In this document: piece after piece, positions 39,468 through 54,500 of the stretch
Position numbering within the stretch: the first letter of the stretch is position 1
Layout of the letters: each line of letters starts with the position of its first letter
Source: Pedobacter steynii
GTDB taxonomy: Bacteria > Bacteroidota > Bacteroidia > Sphingobacteriales > Sphingobacteriaceae
Assembly: GCF_900103665.1 (NCBI RefSeq)
Contig: NZ_FNGY01000003.1
Location: 372,001-436,000, forward strand
Reading direction: 5' to 3'
DNA length: 64,000 nt
Position numbers and translations under genes: made by a program
Notes under the pieces: generated by a model
Database searches by the model: none
The model's input: only the letters and a program-made list of their open reading frames with translations
What the model was told of the DNA's origin: nothing

Positions 39468-39524
39468 TCATATCATTTTTAATAACGTAAAATTCGGCAG
39501 AAATTTCCATAAATGTTTTTTATC

Positions 39525-40244
39525 ATGAGCAACAACGACCTCCCCCTAATATCATGTATCTGCATCACCAACAACAGACCTCAACTGCTTCAAAGAGCAC
39601 TTTCCTGTTTTGGAACACAGGATTATCCAAGAAAAGAACTTGTCATTTCCTATCCTGAAGGTGATTTTCTAACAGAGAATCTGATTGATCAAATAAGCTT
39701 ACTTTCCGCAATACAAATTGTTAAAATAGAACGCAAAAGAGAAGAAACATTAGGTTTGGCCAGGAATAGTGCAATACTTGCTGCAAACGGTAGATATATC
39801 TGCATATGGGATGATGACGATTGGCACCATCCCAATAGACTATCACAGCAGTTTTCGGTAATTGAAAATGGCCCTTTCAAAGCAAGTATACTCATGAATG
39901 TCCTCATGCATGATGTTAAAAACAAAGAAACTTATTATTCTGGTTACCGGGATTGGGAAGGAACATTACTATGTAAAAAACAAACGATTCTTAAAACTGG
40001 CTACCTTGATCTCGAAAAAGGAGAAGATACTTTTGTTCTTCATTATTTATTGTTTACAAATGTCTTATTCCGGATTATTGAAAAGCCAAACCTCTATGTC
40101 TATATCTACCACGGAAATAATACCTGGGGAGAAAACCATTTCAGATCTTATTTTTCCGAAGGAAAACGCATGAATGAAGCCGTAAATTCAGAGGTACTAA
40201 AAGCCATTGACCTAAGTGCACATACTTCTTTTTTTGGCGGTTAA
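39525..40244 (+). CDS. GT2-family glycosyltransferase (type A)
   Basis: A 239-aa protein. The ATG at 39525 gives MSNNDLPLISCICIT, in line with the other copies; the ATG at 39513 would add four residues. GLARNSAI and DDDD at 96-99 are intact. Sections of 23-30 identical bases shared with 38751 (39854-39883 versus 39077-39106, for example) suggest recent duplication or gene conversion. Donor and acceptor are unknown. Confidence 0.9.
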   Translation: MSNNDLPLISCICITNNRPQLLQRALSCFGTQDYPRKELVISYPEGDFLTENLIDQISLLSAIQIVKIERKREETLGLARNSAILAANGRYICIWDDDDWHHPNRLSQQFSVIENGPFKASILMNVLMHDVKNKETYYSGYRDWEGTLLCKKQTILKTGYLDLEKGEDTFVLHYLLFTNVLFRIIEKPNLYVYIYHGNNTWGENHFRSYFSEGKRMNEAVNSEVLKAIDLSAHTSFFGG

Positions 40245-40302
40245 AATCCATTTCATCAGACTGGGTTTACTATCTTCTTCTGCGACCGTAAAAATTCATT
40301 TT

Positions 40303-40347
40303 GAGTCATTTGGCCCTATTAGAAAGTTGAATTTACAGTTAGCTTAG
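40303..40347 (+). promoter_or_regulatory. Palindromic operator E with -7 box
   Basis: GAGTCATTTGGCCC at 40303-40316 and TAGCTTAG at 40340-40347 at the 27-nt spacing. The right half-site differs from the consensus by one base. It precedes the GT2 gene at 40385. Confidence 0.75.
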
Positions 40348-40384
40348 AAACATAGAGTTAAGACAATACCTAACATTAAATTAA

Positions 40385-41098
40385 ATGAACAAGCAGAACC
40401 CGTTAATTTCGTGCATTTGTATTACCAGAGAACGACCACTTTTTTTACAGCGGACTATTGCCTGCTTCATGCGACAAGAGTACCAGAACAGAGAACTGGT
40501 CATTTCTTACCCCGACAATGATTTGCCTACAAAAAATCTGCTAGATCATATGGAAAAAATATTCGCAAACAAATTCCTTAGAATAGAGCGCCCGGTCTTC
40601 GAGACCCTAGGAATGGCAAGAAATAAGGCCATTGAGCTGGCCAAAGGAGAATTTATCTGCATTTGGGATGACGATGATTTTCATAATTCACACCGGTTAT
40701 CTCACCAATACAATGTCATCAAGGACGGGCCGTTTAAAGCCAGTATTTTGGCAAATGTATTAATTTATGATGCGGAAGGTAAAGAAACTTATTACTCTTG
40801 TCAACGGGGCTGGGAGGGTTCCTTACTCTGTGAGAAAGAAATTCTATTGAAAAAAAAATACCTCGATTCCAACAAGAATGAATGGAATGCACTTCTTTTC
40901 TTCCTATCGTCAGGAAATGTGCTATACTACATTACTGAAATGCCACATCTTTATGTATATGTATATCATAGCGATAATACAATGGCAAGCAGTTTATTTG
41001 AACATTTTTTATTGCAAAGTATACCGATTGAAGAAAACGATAACAAGAGCATTCAAAAGTCGATCAGTCTCGATCAATATCTAAAAACAGATCTTTAA
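40385..41098 (+). CDS. GT2-family glycosyltransferase (type A)
   Basis: A 237-aa protein with NPLISCICITRERP, GMARNKAI and DDDD at residues 95-98 (IWDDDDFHNSHRLS). It deviates from its neighbours at FHNSH instead of WHHPN, and at YVYHSDN in the C-terminal motif. It starts a two-gene unit with 41147 (48-bp gap, no palindrome). Sugar specificity is unknown. Confidence 0.88.
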   Translation: MNKQNPLISCICITRERPLFLQRTIACFMRQEYQNRELVISYPDNDLPTKNLLDHMEKIFANKFLRIERPVFETLGMARNKAIELAKGEFICIWDDDDFHNSHRLSHQYNVIKDGPFKASILANVLIYDAEGKETYYSCQRGWEGSLLCEKEILLKKKYLDSNKNEWNALLFFLSSGNVLYYITEMPHLYVYVYHSDNTMASSLFEHFLLQSIPIEENDNKSIQKSISLDQYLKTDL

Positions 41099-41146
41099 AA
41101 CTAAAAGAATAAAAGTTTATTGCCCTCATCAGTTTGCTATTTTGTT

Positions 41147-41851
41147 ATGAACAAACAACTCCCACTGGTTTCCTGCATTTGTATTACGAACAACCGCCCC
41201 TTATTGCTCCAAAGAGCTCTTGCTTGCTTTGAAACCCAAGAGTATCCAAATAAAGAATTGGTCATTTCATACCCGGAAAATGATTCAGTTTCCAGAATTC
41301 TCATTAACCAGATCAGTACCATTTCAGATATAAATATTGTTCGGTTAGAACGTGCGGCGACTGAAAAACTGGGTACTGCCAGAAATAAAGCTGTTGTGGC
41401 CGCCAACGGTGATTTTATCTGCGTCTGGGATGATGATGATTGGTATAGTAACAACAGAATTAGTCATCAATACCAAGTAATTAAAAACAGTCCTTTTAAA
41501 GCAAGTGTTTGCACAAATATTATCATTCTACACTTCAAAGATAAAAAAATCTGTTATTCAGGCTCAAAACTTTGGGAAGGGACTTTGTTCTGTGACAGAG
41601 CAGTTTTAATCAGATATCCTTATCTGGATAAAGAAAAAGGAGAAGCTGAGACCCTTATTTATCAGTTAGCAGCTAACAATAATCTTTTTCCGATCATCAA
41701 TGACCCCTATCTCTACGTACATATTTTTCATGGAGAAAACTGTTTAGAAGAAAATTATTTCAACATCCATCTCTACAATAGTCTTGCCCTTGAAGAAAGT
41801 ACTCAAAAAGATATAGAGGAATTGACAAGCCTCGATAACTATGTTCTTTAG
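41147..41851 (+). CDS. GT2-family glycosyltransferase (type A)
   Basis: A 234-aa protein starting at ATG 41147 (MNKQLPLVSCICIT); a TTG 27 bp upstream gives a longer frame, but the nine extra residues have no counterpart in the other copies. GTARNKAV and DDDD at 95-98 (VWDDDDWYSNNRIS) are intact. The C-terminal motif reads YVHIFHGEN. No operator precedes it, so it depends on the promoter of 40385. Confidence 0.88.
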   Translation: MNKQLPLVSCICITNNRPLLLQRALACFETQEYPNKELVISYPENDSVSRILINQISTISDINIVRLERAATEKLGTARNKAVVAANGDFICVWDDDDWYSNNRISHQYQVIKNSPFKASVCTNIIILHFKDKKICYSGSKLWEGTLFCDRAVLIRYPYLDKEKGEAETLIYQLAANNNLFPIINDPYLYVHIFHGENCLEENYFNIHLYNSLALEESTQKDIEELTSLDNYVL

Positions 41852-41891
41852 CCTCTTTATTAATCAGGTCAATTTAAAAAACAAAAAACCA

Positions 41892-42512
41892 TCACACAAT
41901 TCCAAATTCAGATAATCCAATCAATACTTCGATCTCTCCATTATCACTGATCTTCAGTTTTTCAATGAATTCCAGATGGTATAGACTAATCAGTCGCCCA
42001 TTTCCTTCTAAAATGGTATAAGGACCATCTATTCCTTTCGCTAGCAAAGTAATTCCTGAAAACTGTACCTCCTGCCTCCTCTTCTTCATTGCATTGATAA
42101 TCCCATTAATTCTGGGATTCAAATCTGGTCTTTTTACTACAATAGTTGCAGCATAAGCCAAACGAAAAGTATTATTGGTAATTCTGGCCAGATCTGCCAC
42201 CGGTAAAGTATTCAGCTTATTAAATTCAAATTTATTTACCTCCAGAACCGCTCTATACCATACCGTATCTTTAGGAATAAAATCAATCAAAGACCAATGA
42301 TGGCTTTTCAAAACCTGCTCGATCCCTTCCTTTTCTAAAAGAGGAGCCTTAGAGTTAAGTAAATCCAAGGCCTTGTTTGCAGTCGCTTTATTTTCAGGAT
42401 TCAACAATTCCACATAAACCTCCCCTATAGCCCATAACCGAAGCATCTCATGTCTACTAACCATTTCTATCAATCTCATTATTAATAATTTAAATCTAAA
42501 CACAAAAAACAT
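41892..42512 (-). CDS. Unrecognised protein with ParB-like/sulfiredoxin-like segment
   Basis: A 206-aa cytoplasmic protein, convergent with the GT2 gene at 41147 and divergent from 42657. ATG 42512 is the longest start; 42479 (MRLIEMVSRHEML) is as good. The C-terminal TILEGNGRLISLYHLEF segment resembles the ParB/Srx-type loop (GNxR, substrate- or nucleotide-binding), but the rest is not clearly ParB. I do not assign a function. Its promoter region carries palindrome G, so it belongs to the glycosyltransferase regulon by position. Confidence 0.6.
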   Translation of the reverse strand: MFFVFRFKLLIMRLIEMVSRHEMLRLWAIGEVYVELLNPENKATANKALDLLNSKAPLLEKEGIEQVLKSHHWSLIDFIPKDTVWYRAVLEVNKFEFNKLNTLPVADLARITNNTFRLAYAATIVVKRPDLNPRINGIINAMKKRRQEVQFSGITLLAKGIDGPYTILEGNGRLISLYHLEFIEKLKISDNGEIEVLIGLSEFGIV

Positions 42513-42578
42513 TTGGAATCAACGTCATATAACCAAATTAACAAAACGATTATCCAATTAAAATCTTCAGACAATTAT

Positions 42579-42623
42579 GGGTCATTTGACCCTATAATGA
42601 ATATGGGTTTAGCGGTAAATTAG
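42579..42623 (+). promoter_or_regulatory. Palindromic operator G with -7 box
   Basis: GGGTCATTTGACCC at 42579-42592 is a perfect palindrome (GGGTCA-TT-TGACCC). TAAATTAG follows at 42616-42623 with 27-nt spacing. It lies between the divergent genes 41892 and 42657. On the minus side TAATTTGG lies about 42 nt from the palindrome. Confidence 0.85.
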
Positions 42624-42656
42624 GTAGTAAATCCCCTATTGACAAAAAGCCCAGCT

Positions 42657-43358
42657 ATGAATTATAAGCATCCATTAATCTCTTGTATCTGCATTACCGA
42701 CAATCGGCCCTTAGTATTACAGCGTTCGATCATCTGTTTCGCCAGACAGGATTACCCCAATACAGAATTGATTATTTCTTATCCGGAAGGAGATCTACTT
42801 AGCAAAACCATCATAGAACAAATGATTTCTGTTTCTACGATAAAAATCATCAGTATCGTCAGGCCACGATACGAAAGCTTATGCCTGACAAAAAATAGCG
42901 TCATTGAACATTGTAGCGGTGATTATATCTGTTTTTGGAATGAGGAGCACTGGCATCATATCAACAGGCTGTCTGATCAATACATCGTTATTAAAGACGG
43001 TCCTTTCAAAGCCAGTATACTTATGCATATTTTATTATATGATTTCAACAGTCAGAAAACATATTATTCGGCCTATTGGAACTGGCAGGAAACACTCTTC
43101 TGCGAAAAAAAAATATTACTGGAAGCTACTTACATGGATATAGAAAGAGATGATGATGGTCCCATCATTCATTTTCTTTCTTCTAAGAATGTTTTATATC
43201 ATATTACAGAAACCCCACATCTTTACATCTATATAGGTTATGCAGCCAATGGCCTGGAGCAGAAACGCTTTCATTCCTACTGTCAGGAGGCTGATATGAT
43301 AGACGATATCAATCAAACCGTACAGGAAGTAATTCATCTTGAAAACTATTTAAATTAG
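42657..43358 (+). CDS. GT2-like protein with altered active site (possible pseudo-enzyme)
   Basis: A 233-aa type A protein starting at ATG 42657. The fold is complete (HPLISCICITDNRP, NGPFKASI-like and YIYIGYAAN segments), but two sites normally conserved are changed: the metal-binding DDDD reads NEEH at residues 95-98 (FWNEEHWHHINRLS), and the ARN motif reads TKN (CLTKNSVI). Metal-dependent transfer is therefore doubtful, although the frame is intact. A regulatory or acceptor-binding role is possible. Confidence 0.82.
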   Translation: MNYKHPLISCICITDNRPLVLQRSIICFARQDYPNTELIISYPEGDLLSKTIIEQMISVSTIKIISIVRPRYESLCLTKNSVIEHCSGDYICFWNEEHWHHINRLSDQYIVIKDGPFKASILMHILLYDFNSQKTYYSAYWNWQETLFCEKKILLEATYMDIERDDDGPIIHFLSSKNVLYHITETPHLYIYIGYAANGLEQKRFHSYCQEADMIDDINQTVQEVIHLENYLN

Positions 43359-43366
43359 ATAATTAT

Positions 43367-43411
43367 GGGACATTTGACCCTATTGTCAAGGATATATTTT
43401 GTATAATTTTA
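43367..43411 (+). promoter_or_regulatory. Palindromic operator H with -7 box
   Basis: GGGACATTTGACCC at 43367-43380 and TAATTTTA at 43404-43411, again with 27 nt between. It lies 8 bp after the stop of the preceding gene and drives the type B GT2 pair. Confidence 0.85.
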
Positions 43412-43464
43412 TCGTTGATCGTAAGGTCATAACTAAAGGTAAAAACACATTAAATTATCCCCAG

Positions 43465-44130
43465 ATGATGGAACAACCTCTTGTATCTTGTATTATGCCC
43501 ACAGCAAACCGGCAAAAATATGTCCCGCTTGCTATCCAGTATTTCCTTGGGCAGGATTACTCAAATGCGGAATTGATTATTATCGATGACGGCCTAAGAT
43601 CTGTTGCAGATCTCATCCCTGATGATTCTAAAATCCGCTATTTTTATTCAGAACCTCTGGGAAGCGTTGGTGTAAAACGCAACAATGCCTGTGAAAAAGC
43701 AAAAGGAGAAATCATAATGCACTGGGACGACGACGACTGGTATGCACCAGACTGGATCAGTAGACAAGTGAATGCTTTATTAACTTCCGGAGCAGATATC
43801 ACCGGTCTAAACAAAGTTCTGTTCTACTCTCCTTCGGTTGAAAAGCGTTGGCTTTATGAAGATACTGATAACGAGCAACCCTGGATATGTGGGGCGACAA
43901 TGGCCTTCAGGAAGTCATTCTGGGAACAACATCCGTTTATTGATATTCAGGTTGGCGAAGATTATGACTTTGTCTGGAATACAGGTGCAAAAACATTTGC
44001 TTTAGATTACACCGAAGGTTTTGTAGCCATTCTTCATGCCCATAATACGAGTATTAAACCCGTTGAAGAAATCCGGCATAAAAAAACCGGAACCACCTGG
44101 AAAACACCTTCCCAAAATCCAGCACCATGA
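43465..44130 (+). CDS. GT2-family glycosyltransferase (type B)
   Basis: A 221-aa protein starting at one of two adjacent ATGs (43465 or 43468); a TTG frame upstream lacks family similarity. The type B start is PLVSCIMPTANR, followed by IIIDDG, VKRNNACEKAKGEI, the metal-binding DDDD at 88-91 (HWDDDDWYAPDW), and an ED motif GEDYDFVW. These features are all intact. Type B differs from type A by IMPTANR instead of ICITNNR and by the ED motif near the end. Its stop overlaps the next gene by 4 bp (ATGA), so the two are translationally coupled. Confidence 0.9.
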   Translation: MMEQPLVSCIMPTANRQKYVPLAIQYFLGQDYSNAELIIIDDGLRSVADLIPDDSKIRYFYSEPLGSVGVKRNNACEKAKGEIIMHWDDDDWYAPDWISRQVNALLTSGADITGLNKVLFYSPSVEKRWLYEDTDNEQPWICGATMAFRKSFWEQHPFIDIQVGEDYDFVWNTGAKTFALDYTEGFVAILHAHNTSIKPVEEIRHKKTGTTWKTPSQNPAP

Positions 44131-44819
44131 GTAATCCCTATGTATCCTGCATTATGCCAACAGCGAACAGATCAAAGTTCATCCCCATTGCTATTGAATG
44201 CTTTCTAAGTCAGAGTTACAAGGATGCTGAACTGGTAATAGTAGACGACGGAAGACAATCTGTAAAAAATCTCATACCTGATCATCACCGCATCCGCTAC
44301 TTCTACAGCGAGCCCATCGGAAGTATTGGTGTCAAGAGAAATTATGCTTGTGAACTTGCAAAAGGCGAAATTATTATGCACTGGGATGATGATGACTGGT
44401 ATGCACCAGATTGGATAGTACATCAACTCAAAGCTATTGAAGAATCAAAAGCAGACATATGCGGGTTAAACTCCATTGTTTTCTTTTCCCCACTTGTTGG
44501 AAAATTCTGGAAGTATACAGACACTGAAGGAGAACATCCCTGGCTGTCCGGAGCAACGATGGTATATCGTAAAAATTTCTGGCAGGAACATCCATTTAAA
44601 GATCTTCAAATTGGAGAAGATTATGATTATATCTGGAATACCGGAGCCACTATTTTTGCTCATGATTATACAGATGGTTTTATTGCCACGCTGCATGCAA
44701 CGAATACCACACTCAAGCCTTTTGAAGATCCTAGACATAAGAAACACGCCATACAATGGATGAATGTACGCTATGAGGGGAAAGCCGAAAACCCAAAACA
44801 GAGTAGGCCTGAAAACTAA
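44127..44819 (+). CDS. GT2-family glycosyltransferase (type B)
   Basis: A 230-aa protein with YVSCIMPTANRSKF, VIVDDGRQS, GVKRNYACELAKGEI and DDDD at 87-90; the ED motif GEDYDYIW is also intact. The last 14 residues, GKAENPKQSRPEN, are the part whose DNA is echoed as a relic before each WYxY gene further on. It begins in the ATGA overlap of the preceding gene and ends 10 bp before the first WYxY-type gene, which suggests a common transcript. Confidence 0.9.
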   Translation: MSNPYVSCIMPTANRSKFIPIAIECFLSQSYKDAELVIVDDGRQSVKNLIPDHHRIRYFYSEPIGSIGVKRNYACELAKGEIIMHWDDDDWYAPDWIVHQLKAIEESKADICGLNSIVFFSPLVGKFWKYTDTEGEHPWLSGATMVYRKNFWQEHPFKDLQIGEDYDYIWNTGATIFAHDYTDGFIATLHATNTTLKPFEDPRHKKHAIQWMNVRYEGKAENPKQSRPEN

Positions 44820-44829
44820 TACTTATTAT

Positions 44830-45144
44830 ATGCCATGGTATCAATTTATTAATAACGAACTAGACATCTGCAACCCTAACAGTTACAGAATATTGGAACA
44901 AGCACCTGCTTCCGTGGACGGTCCTTACTTATGTGCAATCTTTGCAGATGAAATTCCCAATGATCCGGAACGAAAACCAGATCTGGAAGGTACCCCCGGG
45001 TTGCTTTTTTATATTATCCGTTCTCTCGCAAAGGGCAAAGGACAACCTGTTTCAATTTTCCCCCCTGTCCCCCTGGAGGTAAGGATGTCTACATCCCCCG
45101 CATCAGGAAGCATAGAAGATTATTCGGCTAACCAGTCGGTTTAG
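44830..45144 (+). CDS. WYxY-family small protein, divergent member
   Basis: A 104-aa soluble protein. I chose ATG 44830 (MPWYQFINN) because it lies 10 bp behind the GT2 stop and aligns with the MANWYVY starts of the family; an upstream in-frame ATG at 44764 lies inside the GT2 gene. Family features: WY near the start, NPNSYR, the G..LCAIF strand and an IIRSLAKGKGQP helix end. It has a longer, Ser/Pro-rich C-terminus than the others. No signal peptide, no transmembrane helix. Function unknown. Confidence 0.75.
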   Translation: MPWYQFINNELDICNPNSYRILEQAPASVDGPYLCAIFADEIPNDPERKPDLEGTPGLLFYIIRSLAKGKGQPVSIFPPVPLEVRMSTSPASGSIEDYSANQSV

Positions 45145-45196
45145 CTACAGAATAAAATCAGAGGATTTGTTTCTTAAATTTTAAAATAAAAACATT

Positions 45197-45448
45197 ATGA
45201 GTAGATCATGGTATGCATATATGGGGTTAGGAGACCCTCTATTATGCTCAGGTTATGTAAAAGTTACCGTTAAACACAATTGCATCTGTGGTGAAAAAAT
45301 ATGCGCTATATATGCCGCAGGAGAAGGTTTCAGACCAACAGAACCATTCTCAGAAAATATGCAGCAGTACATTAAAAAAGCTTTAGCTACTGGTAGGATT
45401 CAACCTGAAAGACCCTTTGGCTCAAAGAAATATGTATACCTCAGATAA
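45197..45448 (+). CDS. WYxY-family small protein
   Basis: An 83-aa soluble protein, MSRSWYAYMGLGDPLL, sharing with the tandem copies the SWYAY start, GDP turn, NCICGEKICAIY strand with two Cys five residues apart, a helix with QYIKKALATG, and the final KYVYLR. There is no GT2-tail relic in front. It follows the gene at 44830 by 52 bp and precedes a type A GT2 gene. Family function unknown. Confidence 0.82.
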   Translation: MSRSWYAYMGLGDPLLCSGYVKVTVKHNCICGEKICAIYAAGEGFRPTEPFSENMQQYIKKALATGRIQPERPFGSKKYVYLR

Positions 45449-45520
45449 TAAATCAACTGGATGAATTTATAAAGCAGGTATTCCAGACAGCTGAAGAATT
45501 ACACTTTTAAAATCGTAATT

Positions 45521-46219
45521 ATGACAATTAATTATCCTTTGATCTCTTGTATTTGTGTAACTAACAATAGGCCTCAGCTATTGCAAAATGCGATAGATTG
45601 TTTTGAATCTCAAAATTACCCGAATAAAGAACTGGTGATTTCTTATCCGAAAAAAGACACTTTAACAAAAAAAGTAATCGAAAGTCATCAAAATTCTAAT
45701 TTGAGAATTTTACCGATAGAAAGAGAAGATACAGAATCTCTTGGAAACGCCAGAAATCAAGCTATTGTAAAATGCAAAGGCGAATACGTATGTACTTGGG
45801 ATGACGATGACTGGTACCACTCAAGCCGACTATCTTTTCAATTTAACAGTACGCAAGAAAAAGGTCAGGGCTACCAGGCAAGTATATTAACCCGTATCTT
45901 ACTCTATGATACCACGACAAAACAAGTATACCTCTCCTTCCCATATCCATGGGAAGGAACCATCCTTTGCAGAAAGGTGATTTTATTGCAGAACCAATAT
46001 AAAAACAGCAACATTGCCGAAGATTCGCACGTGGTTCGTTTTCTTTCCTCCAGAAACCTATTATTTAAAATTGAGCATGTTCCTTTCCTTTATGTATACA
46101 TCTACCATGGGAATAACACCTGGAACTATAAACATTTCGAAGCCTTTCTCTCAAAGAGCGAATTGATTACAGGAGCAGACAGTGAACATATCCTTGGGCT
46201 ACTGGAGTATTTAAATTAG
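45521..46219 (+). CDS. GT2-family glycosyltransferase (type A)
   Basis: A 232-aa protein with YPLISCICVTNNRP, GNARNQAI and DDDD at 94-97 (TWDDDDWYHSSRLS), and YVYIYHGNNTW near the end, all intact. The 72-bp gap before it has no palindrome, so it appears to be read through from the WYxY gene at 45197. Donor and acceptor unknown. Confidence 0.9.
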   Translation: MTINYPLISCICVTNNRPQLLQNAIDCFESQNYPNKELVISYPKKDTLTKKVIESHQNSNLRILPIEREDTESLGNARNQAIVKCKGEYVCTWDDDDWYHSSRLSFQFNSTQEKGQGYQASILTRILLYDTTTKQVYLSFPYPWEGTILCRKVILLQNQYKNSNIAEDSHVVRFLSSRNLLFKIEHVPFLYVYIYHGNNTWNYKHFEAFLSKSELITGADSEHILGLLEYLN

Positions 46220-46271
46220 TTTTTTTCGGTTTTCATTTTCATTCGCCCACAAGATATATAAATCTCAATAT

Positions 46272-46316
46272 GAGACATTTGACCCTCAAAAACATAAAGA
46301 CTTATCCGTAATTTAG
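46272..46316 (+). promoter_or_regulatory. Palindromic operator J with -7 box
   Basis: GAGACATTTGACCC at 46272-46285 and TAATTTAG at 46309-46316, 27-nt spacing. It precedes the small gene at 46427, with a GT2-tail relic at 46347-46385 between them. Confidence 0.8.
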
Positions 46317-46426
46317 GAATATAGATTATTGGAAACAATTCTTCCGGGGAGTGCTGAAAACCCTAAAAAGAGTAAGCATAAATAAAAGTTTTTATTGCTT
46401 TTTGATTTATAAAAGCATGAGATATT

Positions 46427-46681
46427 ATGGCAAATTGGTATACATATGTTTATGGCGATCCACAAAAAGCAGGTAGTTATTTTTACTCAGTAGCAAAGCC
46501 TGTTTGTACAACAGGTGTAAAAGTATGTGCAGTTCTTTTAGATGACACCAGTACGACTGTTCCAGCTCAAGTCAATCTTGATCCACTACTTCCTCATATT
46601 TCCAACGGACTAATGACCCTAATACCACAGCCTACGGGACTAGGTGTACAGCGCCTGGTCTATCTAAAATGCAATTGTTGA
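46427..46681 (+). CDS. WYxY-family small protein, Cys-rich C-terminus
   Basis: An 84-aa protein: MANWYTYVYGDP start, PVCTTGVKVCAVLL with the two conserved Cys, and an IPQPTGLGVQRLVYLK end. Two additional Cys occur at the very end (KCNC), absent from the other copies. It has the 13-codon GT2-tail relic in its leader and the conserved AAAGTTTTTATTGCTTTTTGATTTATAAAAGC element directly before the ATG. Function unknown. Confidence 0.85.
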   Translation: MANWYTYVYGDPQKAGSYFYSVAKPVCTTGVKVCAVLLDDTSTTVPAQVNLDPLLPHISNGLMTLIPQPTGLGVQRLVYLKCNC

Positions 46682-46725
46682 AATTAGGAAATCTTAATTC
46701 ACCATTCATATAATCAATTGAAATT

Positions 46726-46774
46726 GAGCCATATGACCCTATAAAAAAAAAAAAGAAATTCATTAGTAATTTAG
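46726..46774 (+). promoter_or_regulatory. Palindromic operator K with -7 box (wider spacing)
   Basis: GAGCCATATGACCC at 46726-46739, with TAATTTAG at 46767-46774. The spacer is 31 nt here, four more than elsewhere; a run of 12 A in it suggests slippage. It lies upstream of the tandem WYxY units. Confidence 0.7.
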
Positions 46775-46950
46775 TACTAGTAATTATAAACGTAATAGAT
46801 AAAATAAAAACCTGAATAAAGCAAATTAAGGTTGAGTTTATAGTACAACCTGCTCAATACAGGTACCAAGGGGCAAGCTGAAAACCCTGAACAGAGTAAG
46901 CATAAATGAAAGTTTTTGTTGTTTTTTGATTCATAAAAGCATCTTATATT

Positions 46951-47202
46951 ATGGCTAAATGGTATGCCTATTCAGGCAACGGAGATCCATTTCTCTCACC
47001 GAACTACAGAGCGACCACAGTAAAACCTATTTGTACTACAGGTGAGGAAATCTGTGCAATCTATCTTTCTGACAATGATGAAATCCCAGCTCAGTTTGAT
47101 GGAATGACCACCTACATTGCGAATGCACTTGTAACACTAGTCCCTCAACCAACAGGCGTGGGTGTGAGACGCTTTGTTTATTTAAGAGCTCCTATTTCTT
47201 AA
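46951..47202 (+). CDS. WYxY-family small protein, tandem unit 1
   Basis: An 83-aa protein: WY at residues 4-5, GDP at 11-13, PICTTGEEICAIYL with Cys28 and Cys35, the helix TYIANALVTL, PQPTGVGV and the end RFVYLRAPIS. No signal peptide or membrane segment; slightly acidic central loop (DNDEIP). Function is unknown. Repeated presence beside GT2 genes suggests a link to glycan transfer, which is inference. The next units code for almost the same protein. Confidence 0.88.
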   Translation: MAKWYAYSGNGDPFLSPNYRATTVKPICTTGEEICAIYLSDNDEIPAQFDGMTTYIANALVTLVPQPTGVGVRRFVYLRAPIS

Positions 47203-47221
47203 ATAAGTTCAATATAAAATT

Positions 47222-47246
47222 CCGGGGCAATTCATATCGCCCTGGC
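47222..47246 (+). terminator. Degenerate hairpin after unit 1
   Basis: CCGGGGC and GCCCTGG around AATTCATATC. It corresponds to the perfect hairpins in units 2 and 3 but carries substitutions, and the T-run is weak. Confidence 0.55.
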
Positions 47247-47392
47247 GTTCTATAAAAATCACACTGACTGTCTCAGCATTTAAAGTTGGTAGCTTTTGAA
47301 ACAGAAATTGAGGGGCAAGCTGAAAACCCTGAACAGAGTAAGCACAAATGAAAGTTTTTGTTGTTTTTTGATTCATAAAAGCATCCTATATT

Positions 47393-47644
47393 ATGGCTAA
47401 ATGGTATGCCTATTCAGGCAACGGAGATCCATTTCTCTCACCAAACTACAGAGCGACTACAGTAAAGCCTGTTTGTACTACCGGTGAGGAAATCTGTGCG
47501 ATCTATCTTTCTGACAATGATGAAATCCCAGCTCAGTTTGATGGGATGACTACCTACATTGCGAATGCACTTGTAACACTAGTCCCTCAACCAACAGGCG
47601 TGGGTGTGAGACGCTTTGTTTATTTAAGAGCTCCTATTTCTTAA
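47393..47644 (+). CDS. WYxY-family small protein, tandem unit 2
   Basis: An 83-aa protein differing from unit 1 by one residue (Ile27 to Val, PVCTTG). DNA changes against unit 1 are mostly silent (for example CACCAAACTAC for CACCGAACTAC), which points to a preserved protein. Leader relic, T-rich element and 3' hairpin are all present. Confidence 0.88.
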   Translation: MAKWYAYSGNGDPFLSPNYRATTVKPVCTTGEEICAIYLSDNDEIPAQFDGMTTYIANALVTLVPQPTGVGVRRFVYLRAPIS

Positions 47645-47658
47645 ATAAGTTCAATATG

Positions 47659-47694
47659 AAACTCCAGGGCAATTCATATCGCCCTGGAGTTTTA
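47659..47694 (+). terminator. Terminator after unit 2
   Basis: AAACTCCAGGGC and GCCCTGGAGTTT form a 12-bp perfect stem around AATTCATATC, followed by T and A/T. Each of units 2 and 3 thus ends its own transcript. Confidence 0.82.
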
Positions 47695-47836
47695 TAAAAA
47701 ATCACATTGACTGTCTCAGCATTTAAAGTTGATGATTCTTAAAAAAAGAGATTGAGGGGAAAGCTGAAAACCCTGAACAGAGTAAGCATAAATGAAAGTT
47801 TTTGTTGTTTTTTGATTCATAAAAGCATCCTATATT

Positions 47837-48088
47837 ATGGCTAAATGGTATGCCTATTCAGGCAACGGAGATCCATTTCTCTCCCCGAACTACAGAGCGA
47901 CTACAGTAAAACCTGTTTGTACTACAGGTGAAGAAATCTGTGCAATCTATCTTGCAGACAATGATGAAATCCCATCTCAGTTTGATGGAATGACCACCTA
48001 CATTGCGAATGCACTTGTAACACTAGTCCCTCAACCAACAGGCGTGGGTGTGAGACGCTTTGTTTATTTAAGAGCTCCTATTTCTTAA
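47837..48088 (+). CDS. WYxY-family small protein, tandem unit 3
   Basis: An 83-aa protein like units 1 and 2, with changes LADNDEIPSQ for LSDNDEIPAQ. The whole unit (relic, leader, gene, hairpin) repeats with very few base changes, so unequal recombination is the likely cause. Confidence 0.88.
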   Translation: MAKWYAYSGNGDPFLSPNYRATTVKPVCTTGEEICAIYLADNDEIPSQFDGMTTYIANALVTLVPQPTGVGVRRFVYLRAPIS

Positions 48089-48102
48089 ATAAGTTCAATA
48101 TG

Positions 48103-48138
48103 AAACTCCAGGGCAATTCATATCGCCCTGGAGTTTTA
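48103..48138 (+). terminator. Terminator after unit 3
   Basis: Same perfect 12-bp hairpin with arms AAACTCCAGGGC / GCCCTGGAGTTT as after unit 2, then TATAAAAA. Confidence 0.82.
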
Positions 48139-48279
48139 TAAAAATAACATTGACTGTCTCAGCATTTAAAGTTGATGATTCTTAAAAAAAGAGATTGAGG
48201 GGATAGCTGAAAACCTTAAACAGAGTAAGCATAAATGAAAGTTTTTGTTGTTTTTTGATTTATAAAAACACCCTGCACT

Positions 48280-48540
48280 ATGGCCAATTGGTACGTATAT
48301 TCGGGTTGGGGAGATCCATTTCTCTCACCGAATTACAGATTAGTTACGACAAAACCTGCTTGTACTGTAGGTTCACAAATTTGCTGTATCTATCTTAATT
48401 CAAATGATGTCATTCCACCCCAATTTAATGGAACTGATAATATGGTTACTTATATTGCCAATGCACTTTTAACACAGGTACCTCAACCAACTGGTGTTGG
48501 TGTGAAACGATTTGTTTATTTGAGAGGTCCTGTTTCCTAA
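48280..48540 (+). CDS. WYxY-family small protein, tandem unit 4 (subtype 2)
   Basis: An 86-aa protein with the second subtype sequence: MANWYVYSGWGDPFLS, PACTVGSQICCIYLNSND with an additional Cys after the second, NGTDNMVTYIANALLTQ, and RFVYLRGPVS. Three residues longer than subtype 1 in the loop before the helix. The 3' region has no hairpin like those of units 2-3. Leader relic reads with ATA for AAA and CTT for CCT. Confidence 0.88.
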   Translation: MANWYVYSGWGDPFLSPNYRLVTTKPACTVGSQICCIYLNSNDVIPPQFNGTDNMVTYIANALLTQVPQPTGVGVKRFVYLRGPVS

Positions 48541-48721
48541 ACAGATTTATTGTGCGTTCTGATCGACGAATTCTACTGGGAAATTGCATAAAAAAATTGT
48601 ATCTGCGCTTAAAGTTGGTGCTTTTAAAAACCGAGATTGAGGGGAAAGCTGAAAACCCTGAACAGAGTAAGCATAAATGAAAGTTTTTGTTGTTTTTTGA
48701 TTCATAAAAGCACCTTACCTT

Positions 48722-48982
48722 ATGGCAAATTGGTACGTATACTCGGGTTGGGGAGATCCGTTTCTCTCGCCGAATTACAGATTGATTCTGATAAAGCCTA
48801 CTTGTACTTCAGGTTCAGAAATTTGTTGTATCTATCTTAATTCAAATGATGTCATTCCACCCCAATTTAATGGAACAGATAATATGGTTACTTATATTGC
48901 CCATGCTCTTGCAACACAAATACCTCAACCAACTGGTGTTGGTGTGAAACGTTTTGTTTACTTAAGAGATCCTGTTTCCTAA
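48722..48982 (+). CDS. WYxY-family small protein, tandem unit 5 (subtype 2)
   Basis: An 86-aa protein close to unit 4: same start, PTCTSGSEICCIYLN, NGTDNMVTYIAHALATQ, RFVYLRDPVS. Changes are mainly in the Cys-flanking loop. Preceded by relic and leader, as the others. It is the last intact copy; a decayed one follows. Confidence 0.88.
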   Translation: MANWYVYSGWGDPFLSPNYRLILIKPTCTSGSEICCIYLNSNDVIPPQFNGTDNMVTYIAHALATQIPQPTGVGVKRFVYLRDPVS

Positions 48983-49125
48983 ACAGATTTAATTTGAAGT
49001 TTCCGATCGACAAACTTTACAGGGAAATAGCAAAAAAAATTACGCTCACTCTATCGACATTTAAACCTGGCAGATTTTGAACAAAAAAAAGTAACAAAAT
49101 TTTAAATAAACAACAGTACAAATAA

Positions 49126-49307
49126 GGAGTAAAGGAAACATCGAAAATCATGAATAAAGTAAGTGTAAATGAAAGTTTTCGCAGTTGTTCCCCCCTTCCC
49201 AGTTTGATGGGATAACAATCTTACATGGTGAATACACTTGTTCCCCAAACACCCCAACCTTCCAGGGGAGGGTGATACGCTTTGTTTATTTAAAGGGACT
49301 TATTTAG
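49126..49307 (+). pseudogene. Decayed WYxY unit
   Basis: The leader relic is still visible with in-frame changes (about 49126-49170, including a TAA), followed by GAAAGTTTTCGCAGTTGTTCC. The sequence then jumps into the second half of the gene (CAGTTTGATGGGAT...), including the C-terminal CGCTTTGTTTATTTAAAGGGACTTATTTAG with frame breaks. The first half of the gene is missing. No protein is expected. Confidence 0.75.
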
Positions 49308-49533: not shown

Positions 49534-50124
49534 ATGTATTCAGACAGGTTTGCTTATCATTCATTGACTGATTTTGAATTGACTAAATTGCTAATCTCAG
49601 GAGACAGTGATGCATTCATCGAAATCTATAATCGTTTTCAAGCGCTAATGTATGTATATGCATGTAAAATAACGATGGATAAAGAAGAAGCGGAGGATAT
49701 TGTCCAGGAAGTTTTTATTTACTTATGGGACAAAAGAACAACCGTAATTTTAAGATCAAGCCTATCTTCTTACTTATACAGTGCAGTTAGATATAAGTTC
49801 TTTAACCTGCTTGATCACCAAAAAGTAAGAAAAGATTACAGGCTGTCTTTTCAAAACTTTCTTGATCAGGGAGAATACATCACGGACAATTACATCAGAG
49901 AAAAAGAGTTTAGCCAGCTCATAGAAAAAGAAATCGCAGCATTGCCGGATAAAATGCGAGAGATATTTGAATTGAGCAGGAAACAAAATTTGTCTCGAAA
50001 AGAGATCTCTGAAAAGTTAAACGTTTCTGAAAAGACCGTTAAAAACCAAATCAACAATGCTTTAAAGATACTTAGGGGAAAGCTGGGCTTCTTTCCTTTC
50101 CTGTTGCTACTAATTAATAAATAA
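49534..50124 (+). CDS. ECF sigma factor
   Basis: A 196-aa RNA-polymerase sigma factor of the extracytoplasmic-function type. The region 2 helix (YNRFQALMYVYACKITMDKEEAEDIVQEVF) and region 4 (LPDKMREIFELSRKQNLSRKEISEKLNVSEKTVKNQINNAL) are both present; no extra domains. It should be held by the FecR-type protein encoded 73 bp downstream and released on a signal through the SusC plug at 51502. Whether it reads the promoters with the palindromic operator is not known. Confidence 0.93.
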   Translation: MYSDRFAYHSLTDFELTKLLISGDSDAFIEIYNRFQALMYVYACKITMDKEEAEDIVQEVFIYLWDKRTTVILRSSLSSYLYSAVRYKFFNLLDHQKVRKDYRLSFQNFLDQGEYITDNYIREKEFSQLIEKEIAALPDKMREIFELSRKQNLSRKEISEKLNVSEKTVKNQINNALKILRGKLGFFPFLLLLINK

Positions 50125-50197: not shown

Positions 50198-51340
50198 ATG
50201 ACCAAGAAAGACCTTCCTGAAGAGCTCATTCATAAATATCTACAAGAATCCTGTTCCGAGGAGGAGCTTGCTATAGTAGAGAGCTGGCATATCCATGACC
50301 TATCGAAAAGCACTTATCTTCCCTCAAAAGAAAACATAGCTATTGTAAGTACCAGAATGGCACATAAACTTACCACTTATGTGCAAGCTGGGAATAAAAC
50401 GCAACAGACAATCAGACTATGGCAACGTGTTGCACTTACAGCTTCTATCCTTTTGATTGTTTCCTCCGTTGCTTTCTTATATACAGGGAACCCGGAATCC
50501 ACTTCGGTAAGTGTCCAAAGAAAATCAACACTTCATGACATTCTACCGGGTGGTTATAAAGCTATTCTAACACTTTATAATGGAAATAAAGTCAGACTCA
50601 ACAGCAAGATCAACGAAGGAATCATCCGGGAAAAAAATGTGAATATCCGCATAGAATCAGGGCAGAAAATTGTCTACCAAAGCGAAGAATCTAAAGGAAC
50701 TCAACTTCTAAACAGCCTGGAAACTCCACGTGGCGGCCAATATCAACTAATCTTACCAGATGGGACTAAAGTATGGCTGAACGCTTCCAGTACATTGACT
50801 TACCCTACTGCTTTTACAAGTAAAGAGCGACTAGTTAAATTAATTGGTGAAGCGTTTTTTGAGGTATCGAAGGATTCTAACAGGCCTTTTAAAGTGCAGA
50901 GTAAAGATCAGGTGGTGGAAGTATTGGGAACTCATTTTAACATATCAGCGTATCCGGAAGAACGTCAAACACTAACAACATTATTAGAGGGGAAAATTAA
51001 AATCCGTAAACATAATATCAACAAAACCCTAAATCCCGGACAAGGGGCTCTCATCACAGAAGGTGACAACGATATTTTAATTACCCAGGCTGACATAGAA
51101 AAAAACATGGCCTGGAAAAACAATGAGTTCATATTTAACGGTGAAAACCTGAGAAGCATTATGCGATCGATAGCAAGATGGTACGACGTTGATATTATTT
51201 ATAAGAATTACTCAGATGACACCAAATACTGGGGAACAGTTTCCCGTTCGAAAAATATCTCGGCCGTATTAAGGATGTTGGAATCTACAGGGAAAATTAA
51301 ATTTCACATAGAAGGAAGGAGGATTATAGCTATGAATTAA
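50198..51340 (+). CDS. FecR-type anti-sigma factor
   Basis: A 380-aa inner-membrane protein with a cytoplasmic N-terminal anti-sigma part (residues 1-70), one transmembrane helix near 77-95 (VALTASILLIVSSVAFLYTG), a periplasmic FecR domain (about 180-275: GGQYQLILPDGTKVWLNASSTLTYP, GEAFFEVSKDSNRPFKV, LGTHFNISAY), and a DUF4974-like C-terminal part (about 310-380: LRSIMRSIARWYDVDIIY). It receives the signal from the SusC-type transducer. It follows the sigma gene at 73 bp and is followed by a hairpin in the 161-bp gap. Confidence 0.92.
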   Translation: MTKKDLPEELIHKYLQESCSEEELAIVESWHIHDLSKSTYLPSKENIAIVSTRMAHKLTTYVQAGNKTQQTIRLWQRVALTASILLIVSSVAFLYTGNPESTSVSVQRKSTLHDILPGGYKAILTLYNGNKVRLNSKINEGIIREKNVNIRIESGQKIVYQSEESKGTQLLNSLETPRGGQYQLILPDGTKVWLNASSTLTYPTAFTSKERLVKLIGEAFFEVSKDSNRPFKVQSKDQVVEVLGTHFNISAYPEERQTLTTLLEGKIKIRKHNINKTLNPGQGALITEGDNDILITQADIEKNMAWKNNEFIFNGENLRSIMRSIARWYDVDIIYKNYSDDTKYWGTVSRSKNISAVLRMLESTGKIKFHIEGRRIIAMN

Positions 51341-51501: not shown

Positions 51502-54500
51502 ATGAAATTTTTCACTGAATCTTCATACAGGCCAAATGCCTGTATGGTTAAATTTCTGTGCGTTATGAAACTGATTATTGTTTTAATGACAACAGCGTTC
51601 CTCCAGATCGGTTTTGCTGCTGAGGCACAAAAAATTACTCTATCAGAAAAAAATGCCTCTTTGGTCAAGATATTTAAAGATATCAAGATACAAAGCAGTT
51701 ATGATTTTTTTGGAGATCTGGAACTGCTCCAAAAAGCCAAAACCGTAACCATAAATATCAGAGACGCAAGAATAGAGGATGTTTTAGCCATTTGCTTCGC
51801 TGATCAGAACTTAACCTATACCATTAATGATAAAATAGTCGTCTTCAAAGAAAAAAAAGCCGTTTCAAAAGACACCCGCTTTTTACCTCAGGACTCTCTG
51901 GTTTTCAAAGGGAAGGTAATAGATGAAAATGGCGTTCCAATGCTTGGTGCGACTGTGAGGGTAAAAGGCAGCAAAAAGGTTACAAAAACAGGAAACGATG
52001 GTAATTTTTCTATCATGGCTTACAAAAAAGGAGCCATTGAGATTTCATTTATTGGTTATGTTACAAAAGAAATCAGCCTTATTGGCTTGAATGCTGGAAA
52101 CAGTATTTCAGTCGCATTACAACCAGGTCAGAACCAGCTTGGGGAAGTAAACGTAGTGAGTACAGGCTACCAGGATATTCCTAAGGAAAGAGCTACAGGC
52201 TCCTTTGAAATCATAAGCAAAGAACAACTGCAACATAGTAATAGTCCAAACCTGGTTAAACGACTGGAAGGTATTACTGCAAGTATGGATTTTGGCAATC
52301 CACTAAGTGGCAATGCCAATCTTTCCAGTAATAACGTTAAGAGATCACCACTTATCACTTTAACCATCAGGGGTAAAAATACGCTCGTAGCACCAGGTGT
52401 TGGAGTTGACAGAAGCTCAAACAGTGGGCAGATTCTCGTTGTTGTTGATGGAATACCCTCGCCCTACACAATCGATGAAATCAATCCCGATGACGTAGAA
52501 AGCATCAATATTTTAAAGGATGCCGCTGCCGCTTCTATTTGGGGCTCAAGAGCATCAAACGGAGTAATTGTGATCAAAACAAAAAAGGGTAGCTATAACA
52601 AACCAGCTAATATTTCCTTCAACACCAATATAAACCTGACGGATAAAATCGACTTATTCTATAAAAAGTTTATGACTACTTCTGATTTTGTAGACGCACA
52701 AATCCAAAAGTACAATAATAAATATAGTAGACCTGTAGATGATCCTACAGATCTTTTTCAACCACAACCCTTTCTTTCTCCGGTGGAAGAGATTATCAAT
52801 GATCAACGCCTAGGCAAGCTAACAGATGACCAAGCAAAAGCAAAGTTGGACTATTTACGTGATAAAGATGTTCGAAACGATCTTGATAAATATTTCCTTC
52901 GCAAAACCGTTGTTCAAAACTATTCTCTGTCAATTGATGGCGGATCAGAAAAATATGCTTATCGTTTGTCCGGCGGATTTACCAACACCAGAAACAATAC
53001 TGTTCCCAGCAGTGGTGAAAGATATAATTTGAATTACAGTACATCTGTTAAACCCCTTAAAAAATTGTCAATTGAGGCAATTTTAGCCTATAATGATTCT
53101 AAAACCATGGATCAGGCCGGAGGAAACAGACTGGTTGGCAGTAGCCTTAATACAGGATTTAACCCCTATGCAGAGCTGGCAGATGCTCAGGGAAATCCTC
53201 TGGTGGTTCCACGTACCTACAGACCGAAATATCTTCAACTTTTGGCGAATCGTTATGGCGATAAAATCCTTGATATGAGTTTTAAACCTTTGGAAGATAT
53301 GAATTATGGCTATTCCAAAAACACAAGTAAGAACATTAACATTAATCTAAACGCGAATTACAATATAAATTCAATTTTTACGGCAAGACTCACTTATGGA
53401 TATAGTTACGGACAAAATGAACAAATAGAGTTAAGGGGTGTCAATTCTTATTATACACGTGAAATAATCAACATTTTCACGACTAGAGAAGACTATAGAG
53501 ACCCCTTTACAACTGCCGTGACTCCCTTGAAAAAATTAATTCCATTAGGTGGTATTTATACTCCTGCAAGAACGAGATATAACATTCAAAGTTTGAGAGG
53601 GCAACTGGATGCAAATAAAACATGGAATGAGAAACATCAGTTAAATGCCTTCGCAGCTATAGATATCAATCAATATTATGAAAACAGCTACTTACAACAA
53701 TTCTATGGATATGATGAAAAAACACTAAAGGTCAATAACAGTTTACCATTTGGCATAGAGTTTAGACGCTTAATCAACGATCAGATCACTGGACTTTCCA
53801 GCGGATTTCTCCCTTTTACACCAGCGGGTATTAGTGACTTTAAAACCCGTGCACTGAGTTTTTCTTCAAATGCAGCTTATACCTACGACCGACGATATAC
53901 CATTTCAGCGAGTATTCGAAAAGACTTAAATAGTACCTCAGGACCATCAACGAATAAGGGGGCTAAACCGTATACCTCATATGGGGTACTCTGGAGTATT
54001 AATAATGAAAAATTTTATGGATTAACATGGTTACCATTATTACAATTCCGGGCCACCTTTGGCTCTAACGGTAACATCAACGCTCTAAATACCTACAGAC
54101 CGATCATCACGAGAATAGCAGCTCCTACTTTTGGTGGTAACCTATTGCCTTATGCAACAACATCTTTTGTATCCAATTCAGAATTACGTCCGGAAAAATC
54201 AAGGATGTTCAATACAGGATTGAACTTTGGATTAAAAAACAACAGGCTTTCCGGAAGTGTGGAGTATTTTGTTAGAAATACTAAAGATTTAATTAAGGAA
54301 GGTGTACTCGATCCAACTACAGGCTTCAGCTCAGCCAATTACAATTCGGCTAATTTACGTTCCTGGGGAACTGATGTCATCTTAAATTCAATCAATCTCC
54401 AAAGAGGAAAATTTAGCTGGACCAGTCATCTGAATTTCAGCTACAACCGTGTTAAAATATTAAAACTACTTTCTGGAAATGTGAAAGGAACAGTTCTCCA

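Follow-up and report, generated by a model that had tools for sequence, protein, structure and literature searches.

An array of small WYxY genes behind DUF805b RNA leaders in Pedobacter steynii and its relation to DUF6520-type proteins

DUF805b (Rfam RF02914), an orphan cis-regulatory RNA motif, and DUF6520 (Pfam PF20130), a protein family of unknown function, are names that exist in the databases without a function attached; a literature search, which took in few subscription papers, found no paper on either. Here we describe a locus in Pedobacter steynii that is related to both. It lies in a stretch of 64,000 nucleotides (nt) of contig NZ_FNGY01000003.1 (positions 372,001 to 436,000), which is called the window below, and belongs to a genome of 8.06 Mb in 41 contigs from the Pedobacter group (Sphingobacteriaceae). 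Between 44.8 and 49.3 kb, the window holds eight intact genes for small proteins of 83–104 amino acids (aa), referred to as WYxY proteins, and one decayed copy. What is new here is a form of the family that has no signal peptide, is arrayed in tandem and is coupled to glycosyltransferase genes.

The closest described systems are an RNA, a protein family and two groups of peptides. The leader of seven of the eight window genes is the RF02914 RNA itself, but the array copies add a second covarying hairpin that is absent from the 35-nt Rfam model, and the genes belong to a family not suggested by the name DUF805b. The likeness to DUF6520 lies in a W-x-Y ... Y ... C ... C-A-I core, present in signal-peptide-bearing relatives of the WYxY proteins; many of these have a DUF805b leader, some a second hairpin as well, and MauE, TlpA-like and SusCD genes are found nearby. 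The signal peptide is meant here as a trait of the members examined, not of the Pfam entry. In contrast, the window proteins have neither a signal peptide nor a DUF6520 match and are encoded in tandem cassettes adjoining genes of glycosyltransferase families 2 and 10 (GT2 and GT10). Glycocins of the sublancin and pallidocin type are likewise small cysteine-bearing ribosomal products, whose clusters hold glycosyltransferase and thioredoxin-like genes beside the peptide gene (PMC6405829). However, a WYxY protein is a folded domain with two cysteines, whereas a glycocin is a core peptide with five, and by eye the WYxY proteins have no leader peptide or GG-type site; a C39 ATP-binding cassette (ABC) exporter was not recognised at the locus. 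SunS is a GT2 enzyme. The window GT2s measure about 230–240 aa, and the two that were compared are closest to polysaccharide- and Pgl-type enzymes, none being SunS-like. Bacteroidetocins and other GG-leader peptides of Bacteroidota resemble the WYxY proteins in that a small product is encoded beside a thiol redox gene (PMC6671954), and the GG-leader-like genes of the host family share the DUF805b leader with the WYxY genes. Here too, the WYxY proteins differ in having no GG leader and no recognised peptidase-transporter beside them.

The DUF805b RNA had been overlooked in the first-pass annotation of this DNA, as had the operon of sigma factor, FecR, SusC, SusD and redoxin genes just downstream of the array. 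When positions 36000–56000 of the window were searched with cmscan, the RNA was found before seven of the eight genes, with five of the seven copies reaching the gathering score of 35.6 bits. Over the whole window, a 33-base DUF805b pattern with at most three mismatches gave seven matches, against none in 100 shuffles. From the end of the RNA to the ATG there are 49 nt at each of six array genes and 21 nt at the gene starting at 44830, in line with the spacing across loci, which is mostly 48–54 nt for array copies and 18–23 nt for the type of the 44830 gene (the MPWYQF type). Although the listed open reading frame (ORF) of this gene begins at 44764, its start is placed at 44830, because the RNA occupies 44775–44809 and because nine orthologues have the RNA 18–23 nt before the equivalent ATG. 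This same RNA sits within the 3′ end of the upstream GT2 coding sequence (44127–44819); an equivalent overlap occurs in locus L057 (10301–10335 within 9653–10345).

Of 103 WYxY genes in 27 loci, 66 have a DUF805b match no further than 160 nt ahead of them; these loci contain 70 matches, of which 66 stand before a WYxY gene. The count mixes Rfam thresholds (gathering score for some loci, E-value for others), making it an undercount, and excludes the duplicate loci L132, L133, L139 and L141, while L075 and L148 lie outside the Rfam scan. Its distances end at the first residue of the profile, so that the window copies show 52 nt where the true value is 49. An additional match in L066 precedes the start of a signal-peptide-bearing DUF6520 gene. 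The RNA consists of a 4-bp helix, which is that of Rfam's model, and a 3-bp pseudoknot read from the sequences. In 37 leaders, 92.5% of the cells are paired and 29 cells are changed on both sides, compared with 9.2 ± 2.4 in shuffles (0 of 500 reach this value) and at most 6 in slid controls; the window copies include both the C-G and the U-A form of one pseudoknot pair. On these comparative grounds, the predicted pairing is kept by compensatory change. A coding leader with a recoded stop between the RNA and the ATG was considered, as by eye the window leaders read MKVFVVF-stop in frame with the ATG. It was rejected, since linker lengths vary by single bases and the frames differ among relatives; the conservation of this stretch is therefore at the level of RNA.

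The second leader hairpin has the form GCTTTT-TGATTTAT-AAAAGC and ends about 10 bases before the ATG. Across 41 leaders, the cells with a change on either side of the pair together number 31; shuffles give 16.8 ± 2.8, none of the 500 reaching 31, and slid controls give at most 8. RNAalifold, unaided, predicts the inner six pairs of this hairpin together with the pseudoknot stem; helix 1, whose pairs would cross that stem, is omitted. A stem of at least six pairs is also found in seven of eight long leaders of signal-peptide-like genes, compared with 17 of 97 other linkers, most of which are shorter, long linkers allowing more chance stems. On visual inspection, a like element is present in six of these eight leaders (L112, L119, L180, L203, L209, L214). 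Behind the units, folding covered three array genes and not the stretches behind the last two, and a hairpin was found in each case. These hairpins came from folding because the consensus scan permits loops of at most 8, and the one at 47650–47700 is not among the results of that scan, which between 44700 and 49600 gave 12 promoter-like sites (17.1 expected) and 5 terminator-like sites (3.3 ± 1.9 expected). With a leader in front and, for three units, a hairpin behind, each array copy therefore resembles a transcription unit of its own, as far as this can be predicted (Table 1).

As to the genes, all eight ORFs and the decayed copy at 49126 that had been annotated are present, the latter marked by pieces of repeat families D4, D5 and D10. 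The motif plan proposed for all of them describes the five copies from 46951 to 48722; 46427 fits it loosely (KVCAVLL, PQPTGLGV, RLVYLK), and the first two genes differ. The 45197 gene represents a separate core type (KHNCICGEKICAIYA), and the 44830 gene a long conserved type (MPWYQFINNELDIC) with WYQF, no GDP and only the second cysteine of the pair, which also occurs in L056, L057, L058, L060, L061, L063, L134–L136, L138 and L140. With the 46951 protein as single query, seven of the eight window copies are found, itself counted (E ≤ 3.7e-13); the 44830 copy is recovered solely by profiles that contain it. The five copies recur every 442–444 nt with a repeat length of 300 nt, and three of them are at least 97% identical across these 300 nt. 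The earlier statement that silent changes dominate between the tandem copies was borne out. The Nei-Gojobori ratio of nonsynonymous to synonymous changes (dN/dS) is 0.042, 0.064 and 0.229 within 46951/47393/47837, 0.269 for 48280 against 48722 and 0.22–0.27 between the two groups, and no comparable copies have a ratio near 1. Pairs with 44830, 45197 or 46427, with saturated silent sites and ratios of up to 0.97 or none at all, are little informative. The five close copies are kept by purifying selection (dN/dS 0.04–0.27). This disfavours the view that the cassette is selfish, or has simply been amplified, with a protein that has no role, as the regular spacing, the near-identity and the decayed copy could suggest; with the core and long types also standing in constant order across nine Pedobacter-group loci (L056, L057, L058, L060, L134, L135, L136, L138, L140), such a view is barely credible.

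The annotators had not recognised the family, and profile searches agree: the tested window copies match nothing in Pfam, NCBIfam, PHROGs or PADLOC and no PDB sequence or fold, and a well-known family with an unrelated role did not turn up. More precisely, family scans of five copies at E 1 gave no family and one Pfam chance match (0.14), two copies compared with the PHROGs phage families gave none, and PADLOC assigned no defence family to eight window proteins, of which four are WYxY copies. AlphaFold, run on family alignments, yields three strands, a helix and a last strand in two models (pLDDT 81, pTM 0.65 and pLDDT 87, pTM 0.76). Foldseek and VIA-align found nothing in the PDB for either model at E 0.001 or Z 2, and the second model gave nothing among viral models at E 0.001. 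Conserved residues in the family alignment are W4, Y5, Y19, the cysteine pair 28/35, A36-I37, P46 and Y55-I56; in the 39 rows, which exclude the MPWYQF type, Cys 28 is present in 36 and Cys 35 in all.

The family does not stand isolated, as it had seemed to. Relatives with signal peptides share its domain. The WYxY profile (A5) aligns over 71 columns with the mature part of 12 secreted-type relatives (hhalign 98.8%, E 1.2e-16), and all 12, a set chosen for likeness, score 11.9–45.7 bits against a best of 9.3 among 600 shuffles. DUF6520 is matched at E ≤ 0.01 by eight of them, including the L066 protein, which lies above the cut-off in a scan of its own. Profile A1, built without any signal-peptide-bearing member, also finds the proteins of L065 (E 3.3e-9) and L066 (E 1.3e-6). 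On the other side, DUF6520 does not match the five window copies tested at E 1, PF20130 gives four weak matches over the entire host genome, none in the window and none above the cut-off of 25.4 bits, and the WYxY profile gives no alignment (E 0.11) with a second set of 15 presumed DUF6520-like proteins (A9), although L214 and L180 from this set score above shuffles. Judged by profile comparison, the WYxY domain and the mature part of DUF6520-type proteins with signal peptides are homologues. Within the wider group, some of whose signal-peptide-bearing members match DUF6520, the window family forms a branch without signal peptides.

Profile A1 matched 10 of 59 genomes, the host included, all of the host genus. 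Among 400 genomes sampled from the order, profile A5 matched 67, in 8 of 22 genera, all in the host family, and part of these matches will be signal-peptide-bearing relatives. A scan of named genomes gave ten Pedobacter loci and one in Chitinophaga sp. CF118 (L142), of another family and order than the host, where ten ORFs match at E ≤ 0.01. At positions 1200–9906 of L142, several genes have two DUF805b motifs about 35 nt apart (by pattern), like tandem riboswitches; the pair at 4541 and 4576 was confirmed by Rfam. The host genome has 15 WYxY members in total. Outside the window they occur as a single gene (L007), as a pair near a MauE gene (L009) and as four in tandem behind a MauE gene (L011). 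The locus is also present in three strains of Pedobacter cryoconitis, among them DSM 14825.

The DUF805b RNA is not restricted to this family. RF02914 was found in 89 of 151 genomes of the host family at E 1e-4, and above cut-off in 71. In the host genome, 13 of 20 matches of at least 25 bits stand before WYxY genes; behind the remaining seven lie genes for two GG-leader-like peptides, a short secreted cysteine peptide, a longer signal-peptide-like protein and three others. From 116 other sites, the best-scoring ones fetched and not a random draw, two lost the motif and nine had no ORF of 30 aa. The remaining 105 genes, the seven host genes included, comprise 50 signal-peptide-like, 5 lipoprotein-like and 21 GG-leader-like genes (76 together) and 29 others, by a hydropathy and pattern rule of our own that places some GG-leader and small membrane proteins in the signal-peptide class. 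As a baseline, 94 of 311 genes of at least 110 aa, taken from WYxY loci, are signal-peptide-like. Once seven doubtful ORFs had been set aside, 98 of these genes were scanned for families, with 25 of 29 and 25 of 26 families listed; the families include DUF6520 (10), class IIb bacteriocin (4), Bacteriocin_IIc (2), peptidases S8 (2), C1 and M57, the lectin-type domains MVL and Tectonin, and the pore formers MACPF and BSAP5a. Signal-less genes, such as the cytolysin gene of L153 (see below), thus occur in a DUF805b set that is mostly exported-looking, which is the main reason to think that the WYxY proteins are exported.

Bacteriocin-like loci are part of this set. In L149, two GG-leader genes precede HlyD and a C39-peptidase ABC exporter (Pfam). 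More widely, GG-leader bacteriocin-like genes with DUF805b stand beside transport-type genes in L149, L150, L151 and the host loci L079/L085, those outside L149 being judged by size or by eye. As DUF805b also heads bacteriocin-like genes, the WYxY copies could be immunity proteins against kin toxins, collected in tandem and cytosolic or periplasmic according to the target of the toxin; they are tandem, diverging, small, soluble and under purifying selection. However, in bacteriocin-like loci the RNA stands before the peptide gene itself, PADLOC finds nothing, and no WYxY copy was noticed paired with a toxin gene, though no search was aimed at such pairs, so that we hold an immunity role to be quite improbable. 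Two further observations concern signal-less products behind DUF805b. In the host genus, L153:6423-7817 encodes a signal-less thiol-activated cytolysin (Pfam E 1e-97). L191 and L217 each encode a short protein (72 and 70 aa) that lacks a signal peptide and has one Cys-x-x-Cys; the two may represent another small family.

Table 1. Features of the WYxY array and its surroundings in the window.
Feature	Position	Strand	Evidence and remarks
WYxY gene, long conserved type (MPWYQFINNELDIC; MPWYQF type), 104 aa	44830..45144	+	ORF
WYxY gene, core type (KHNCICGEKICAIYA), 83 aa	45197..45448	+	ORF; DUF805b not detected; GT2 73 nt downstream
WYxY array gene, 84 aa, C-terminus KCNC	46427..46681	+	ORF
WYxY array gene, 83 aa	46951..47202	+	ORF
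WYxY array gene, 83 aa	47393..47644	+	ORF
WYxY array gene, 83 aa	47837..48088	+	ORF
WYxY array gene, 86 aa, with ICCIYL	48280..48540	+	ORF
WYxY array gene, 86 aa, with ICCIYL	48722..48982	+	ORF
Decayed cassette (leader remnant and coding remnants)	49126..49307	+	Repeat families D4, D5, D10
DUF805b RNA before 44830 gene	44775..44809	+	cmscan 39.6 bits
DUF805b RNA	46344..46378	+	cmscan 32.7 bits, under gathering
DUF805b RNA	46868..46902	+	cmscan 41.4 bits
DUF805b RNA	47310..47344	+	cmscan 37.8 bits
DUF805b RNA	47754..47788	+	cmscan 40.4 bits
DUF805b RNA	48197..48231	+	cmscan 32.7 bits, under gathering
DUF805b RNA	48639..48673	+	cmscan 40.4 bits
Second leader hairpin	46394..46419	+	Covariation across 41 leaders
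Second leader hairpin	46918..46943	+	Covariation across 41 leaders
Second leader hairpin	47360..47385	+	Covariation across 41 leaders
Second leader hairpin	47804..47829	+	Covariation across 41 leaders
Second leader hairpin	48247..48272	+	Covariation across 41 leaders
Second leader hairpin	48689..48714	+	Covariation across 41 leaders
Hairpin behind 46951 unit, T-run unclear	47210..47260	+	-15.2 kcal/mol, z -3.8
Terminator-like hairpin (CTCCAGGGC..GCCCTGGAG, then TTTTAT)	47650..47700	+	-26.2 kcal/mol, z -8.6
Terminator-like hairpin, TTTTAT tail	48095..48142	+	-26.2 kcal/mol, z -8.4
GT10 (fucosyltransferase-type) gene	37732..38604	-	Pfam PF00852 E 2.7e-13
Seven short GT2 genes (38751, 39513, 40385, 41120, 42639, 43399, 44127)	38751..44819	+	PF00535 for six; 39513 by similarity
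GT2 gene behind core WYxY copy	45521..46219	+	Pfam PF00535 E 1.1e-13
ECF-type sigma factor	49534..50124	+	Pfam Sigma70_r4_2 E 3e-13, r2 5e-8
FecR anti-sigma factor	50198..51340	+	Pfam FecR E 9e-19, FecR_C 2e-21
SusC-type TonB-dependent receptor with STN	51502..55203	+	Pfam Plug 5e-10, STN 9e-8, CarbopepD_reg_2 4e-12
SusD-type lipoprotein	55214..56635	+	Pfam SusD-like_3 E 9e-35
Secreted protein without Pfam family	56720..57532	+	Resembles smaller TlpA-cluster gene of sister loci
TlpA-like (redoxin) secreted protein	57532..58965	+	Redoxin E 1e-5, 25.8 bits (cut-off 26.6); also similar to TlpA-like genes of sister loci

A cassette of the array thus comprises a DUF805b pseudoknot, an A/U hairpin just before the ATG and an ORF for a small cysteine-containing domain. 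This anatomy, i.e., cassettes with a structured leader and a selected ORF, homology to signal-peptide proteins and a characteristic gene company, is very probably correct. For its meaning we favour, with a probability of roughly 0.4 for the whole reading, that the WYxY proteins are a paralogous set of small proteins that is exported, probably carries sugars and faces other cells or the environment. They would be made in the cytosol, where soluble GT2 and GT10 enzymes would add sugars, and their way out of the cell would be one that was not recognised in the window. TlpA/MauE-type redox proteins may set the cysteine pair, and a matching SusC/SusD receptor may recognise the proteins or take them back and relay a signal by way of FecR and the sigma factor. 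The DUF805b leader would control expression after the start of transcription and tie synthesis to a cellular state common to other exported products, namely bacteriocin-like peptides, secreted peptides, pore-forming proteins and lectins. Copy number and divergence would fit a product that faces competitors or kin. Export route, glycosylation and target are what we infer; ranked by support, the steps are leader control, export, glycosylation, redox state of the cysteine pair and recognition by SusCD.

The gene company differs between loci. In the P. cryoconitis-type loci (L056–L058, L060, L132–L135), GT2s, a GT10 and GT-like genes are followed by the core WYxY copy, further GT2s, the MPWYQF type and the array; after the array, on the opposite strand, come an S8 peptidase, two TlpA-cluster genes and, where the sequence extends, SusD and SusC. 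In the window and in P. sp. PLR, the array is followed on one strand by the sigma factor, FecR, SusC, SusD and a TlpA-like gene, and P. caeni has a like order as far as the fetched stretch, which ends in SusC. Loci of another kind combine SusCD genes with MauE and/or TlpA-like genes and have no glycosyltransferases; their proteins have signal peptides in L143–L146, L155 and L156 but not in L064 and L072. The expectation that the family is found mostly next to GT2 genes holds in part. GT2 genes are near 15 of 37 WYxY/DUF6520 loci and GT10 near 12, while TlpA-like genes are near 18, SusC 17, SusD 18, MauE 10 and S8 peptidases 7, compared with SusC at two, SusD at one and none of the others at ten control DUF805b loci; the reference genes were drawn from some of the counted loci (self-matches included) and the controls number only ten, which weakens the support these counts give to the reading.

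The link to the glycosyltransferases admits another explanation, in which the WYxY proteins are cytosolic partner subunits of the short GT2/GT10 enzymes that dock acceptor or enzyme, the copies giving different enzyme pairings and the likeness to secreted DUF6520-type proteins being shared ancestry only. The window copies have no signal peptide, and the gap between the core copy and a following GT2 gene is 9–32 nt in 10 of 12 loci, the window having 73 nt. Moreover, none of the 12 core copies (window, L056, L057, L058, L060, L062, L134–L138, L140) has a detected DUF805b, five of these loci being scanned at the gathering score only, so that the core copies would track the glycosyltransferase genes and not the exported set. 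A copy in core position in L148, from another genus, does carry the motif, by pattern. However, signal-less copies also exist without glycosyltransferase genes, beside MauE (L064, L072, L073) and in the Chitinophaga array, and signal-peptide-bearing relatives should leave the cytosol. The core copy of L139 (P. westerhofensis) has no GT2 behind it within the 1,078 nt available, which counts against both readings. A role as enzyme subunits is, on balance, rather improbable.

The genes downstream suggest instead that the proteins are ligands and no weapons, namely peptide carriers or pheromones, which are released, bind something and are then recaptured by matching SusC/SusD pairs that signal via STN, FecR and sigma factor. 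A sigma factor, FecR, an STN-bearing SusC, SusD and a redoxin directly follow the window array, the same order recurs in P. sp. PLR and, as far as sequence reaches, in P. caeni, and SusC is found near 17 of the 37 loci and SusD near 18. Yet a few control loci have these genes as well, and DUF805b-headed copies without SusC or SusD found nearby occur in L059, L067, L068, L069 and L071. We therefore consider the ligand view doubtful.

Several findings also weigh against the favoured reading. By eye, the window proteins have neither signal peptide nor GG leader, and the open frame of an 83-aa protein spans 90 codons, i.e., only about seven codons above the ATG. No peptidase-containing ABC exporter was recognised by eye among the ORFs of window positions 24000–64000; the single ABC gene scanned (34655) has ABC domains and no transmembrane or C39 domain. 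The best PDB sequence matches of two window GT2s are polysaccharide- and Pgl-type enzymes, and none of their 3 and 12 matches at E 0.01 is named a peptide S-glycosyltransferase; what points to glycosylation is gene order and nothing else. Among 12 MPWYQF-type copies, that of L061 has both cysteines, those of the window and L140 only the second and nine neither, so that the cysteine pair is not universal. DUF805b was not detected at 37 of 103 WYxY genes, including all core copies, and the RNA is therefore not tied to the core copy. At other sites, 29 of 105 genes are not of exported type by the crude rule, and the families named there include two methyltransferases, DUF1761 and TM2. One of five covariation measures for the pseudoknot (number of pair types) and two of five for the second hairpin (double-change pairs, pair types) do not exceed shuffles. 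Lastly, glycosyltransferase-linked and SusCD/MauE-linked loci may use the domain differently.

Export and glycosylation could be parts of a larger scheme, in which the WYxY proteins form a distinct class of ribosomally made glycosylated exo-proteins with a new fold, encoded in amplified RNA-headed cassettes, decorated in the cytosol by short GT2/GT10 enzymes of their own, exported without signal peptide and read back through SusC/SusD, FecR and sigma factor; DUF805b would then be the leader shared across the arsenal that Sphingobacteriaceae export. At present, this is unlikely to hold in full.

Other regions of the window also deserve mention. The gene at 41892–42512 on the minus strand encodes a 206-aa protein without Pfam family. 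Its relatives are absent from the ten controls and occur in nine of the 37 WYxY/DUF6520 loci, every one of which also holds GT2 genes. Adjoining the GT10 gene, an ORF of 416 aa (36414–37664, minus strand) has a weak ATP-grasp match (R2K_2, E 0.001, under cut-off). A smaller upstream GT2 group at 24909–28154 (25844 by Pfam, 27438 by similarity) has c7-type genes (24909, 26588) and no WYxY genes. At 3476–6901 (minus strand), a VgrG-type baseplate protein (Phage_base_V, GPD) is encoded beside an ORF whose product combines DUF4280 with a pretoxin HINT domain, likely a contractile-injection cargo locus.

Altogether, an RNA motif and a protein family, both of unexplained function, are linked, and mostly exported-looking products are common to both. 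DUF805b gains a second structured element and could mark unknown exported peptides and proteins. As the locus occurs in P. cryoconitis DSM 14825, for which genetic tools are described (PMC12181424), the question is directly testable.

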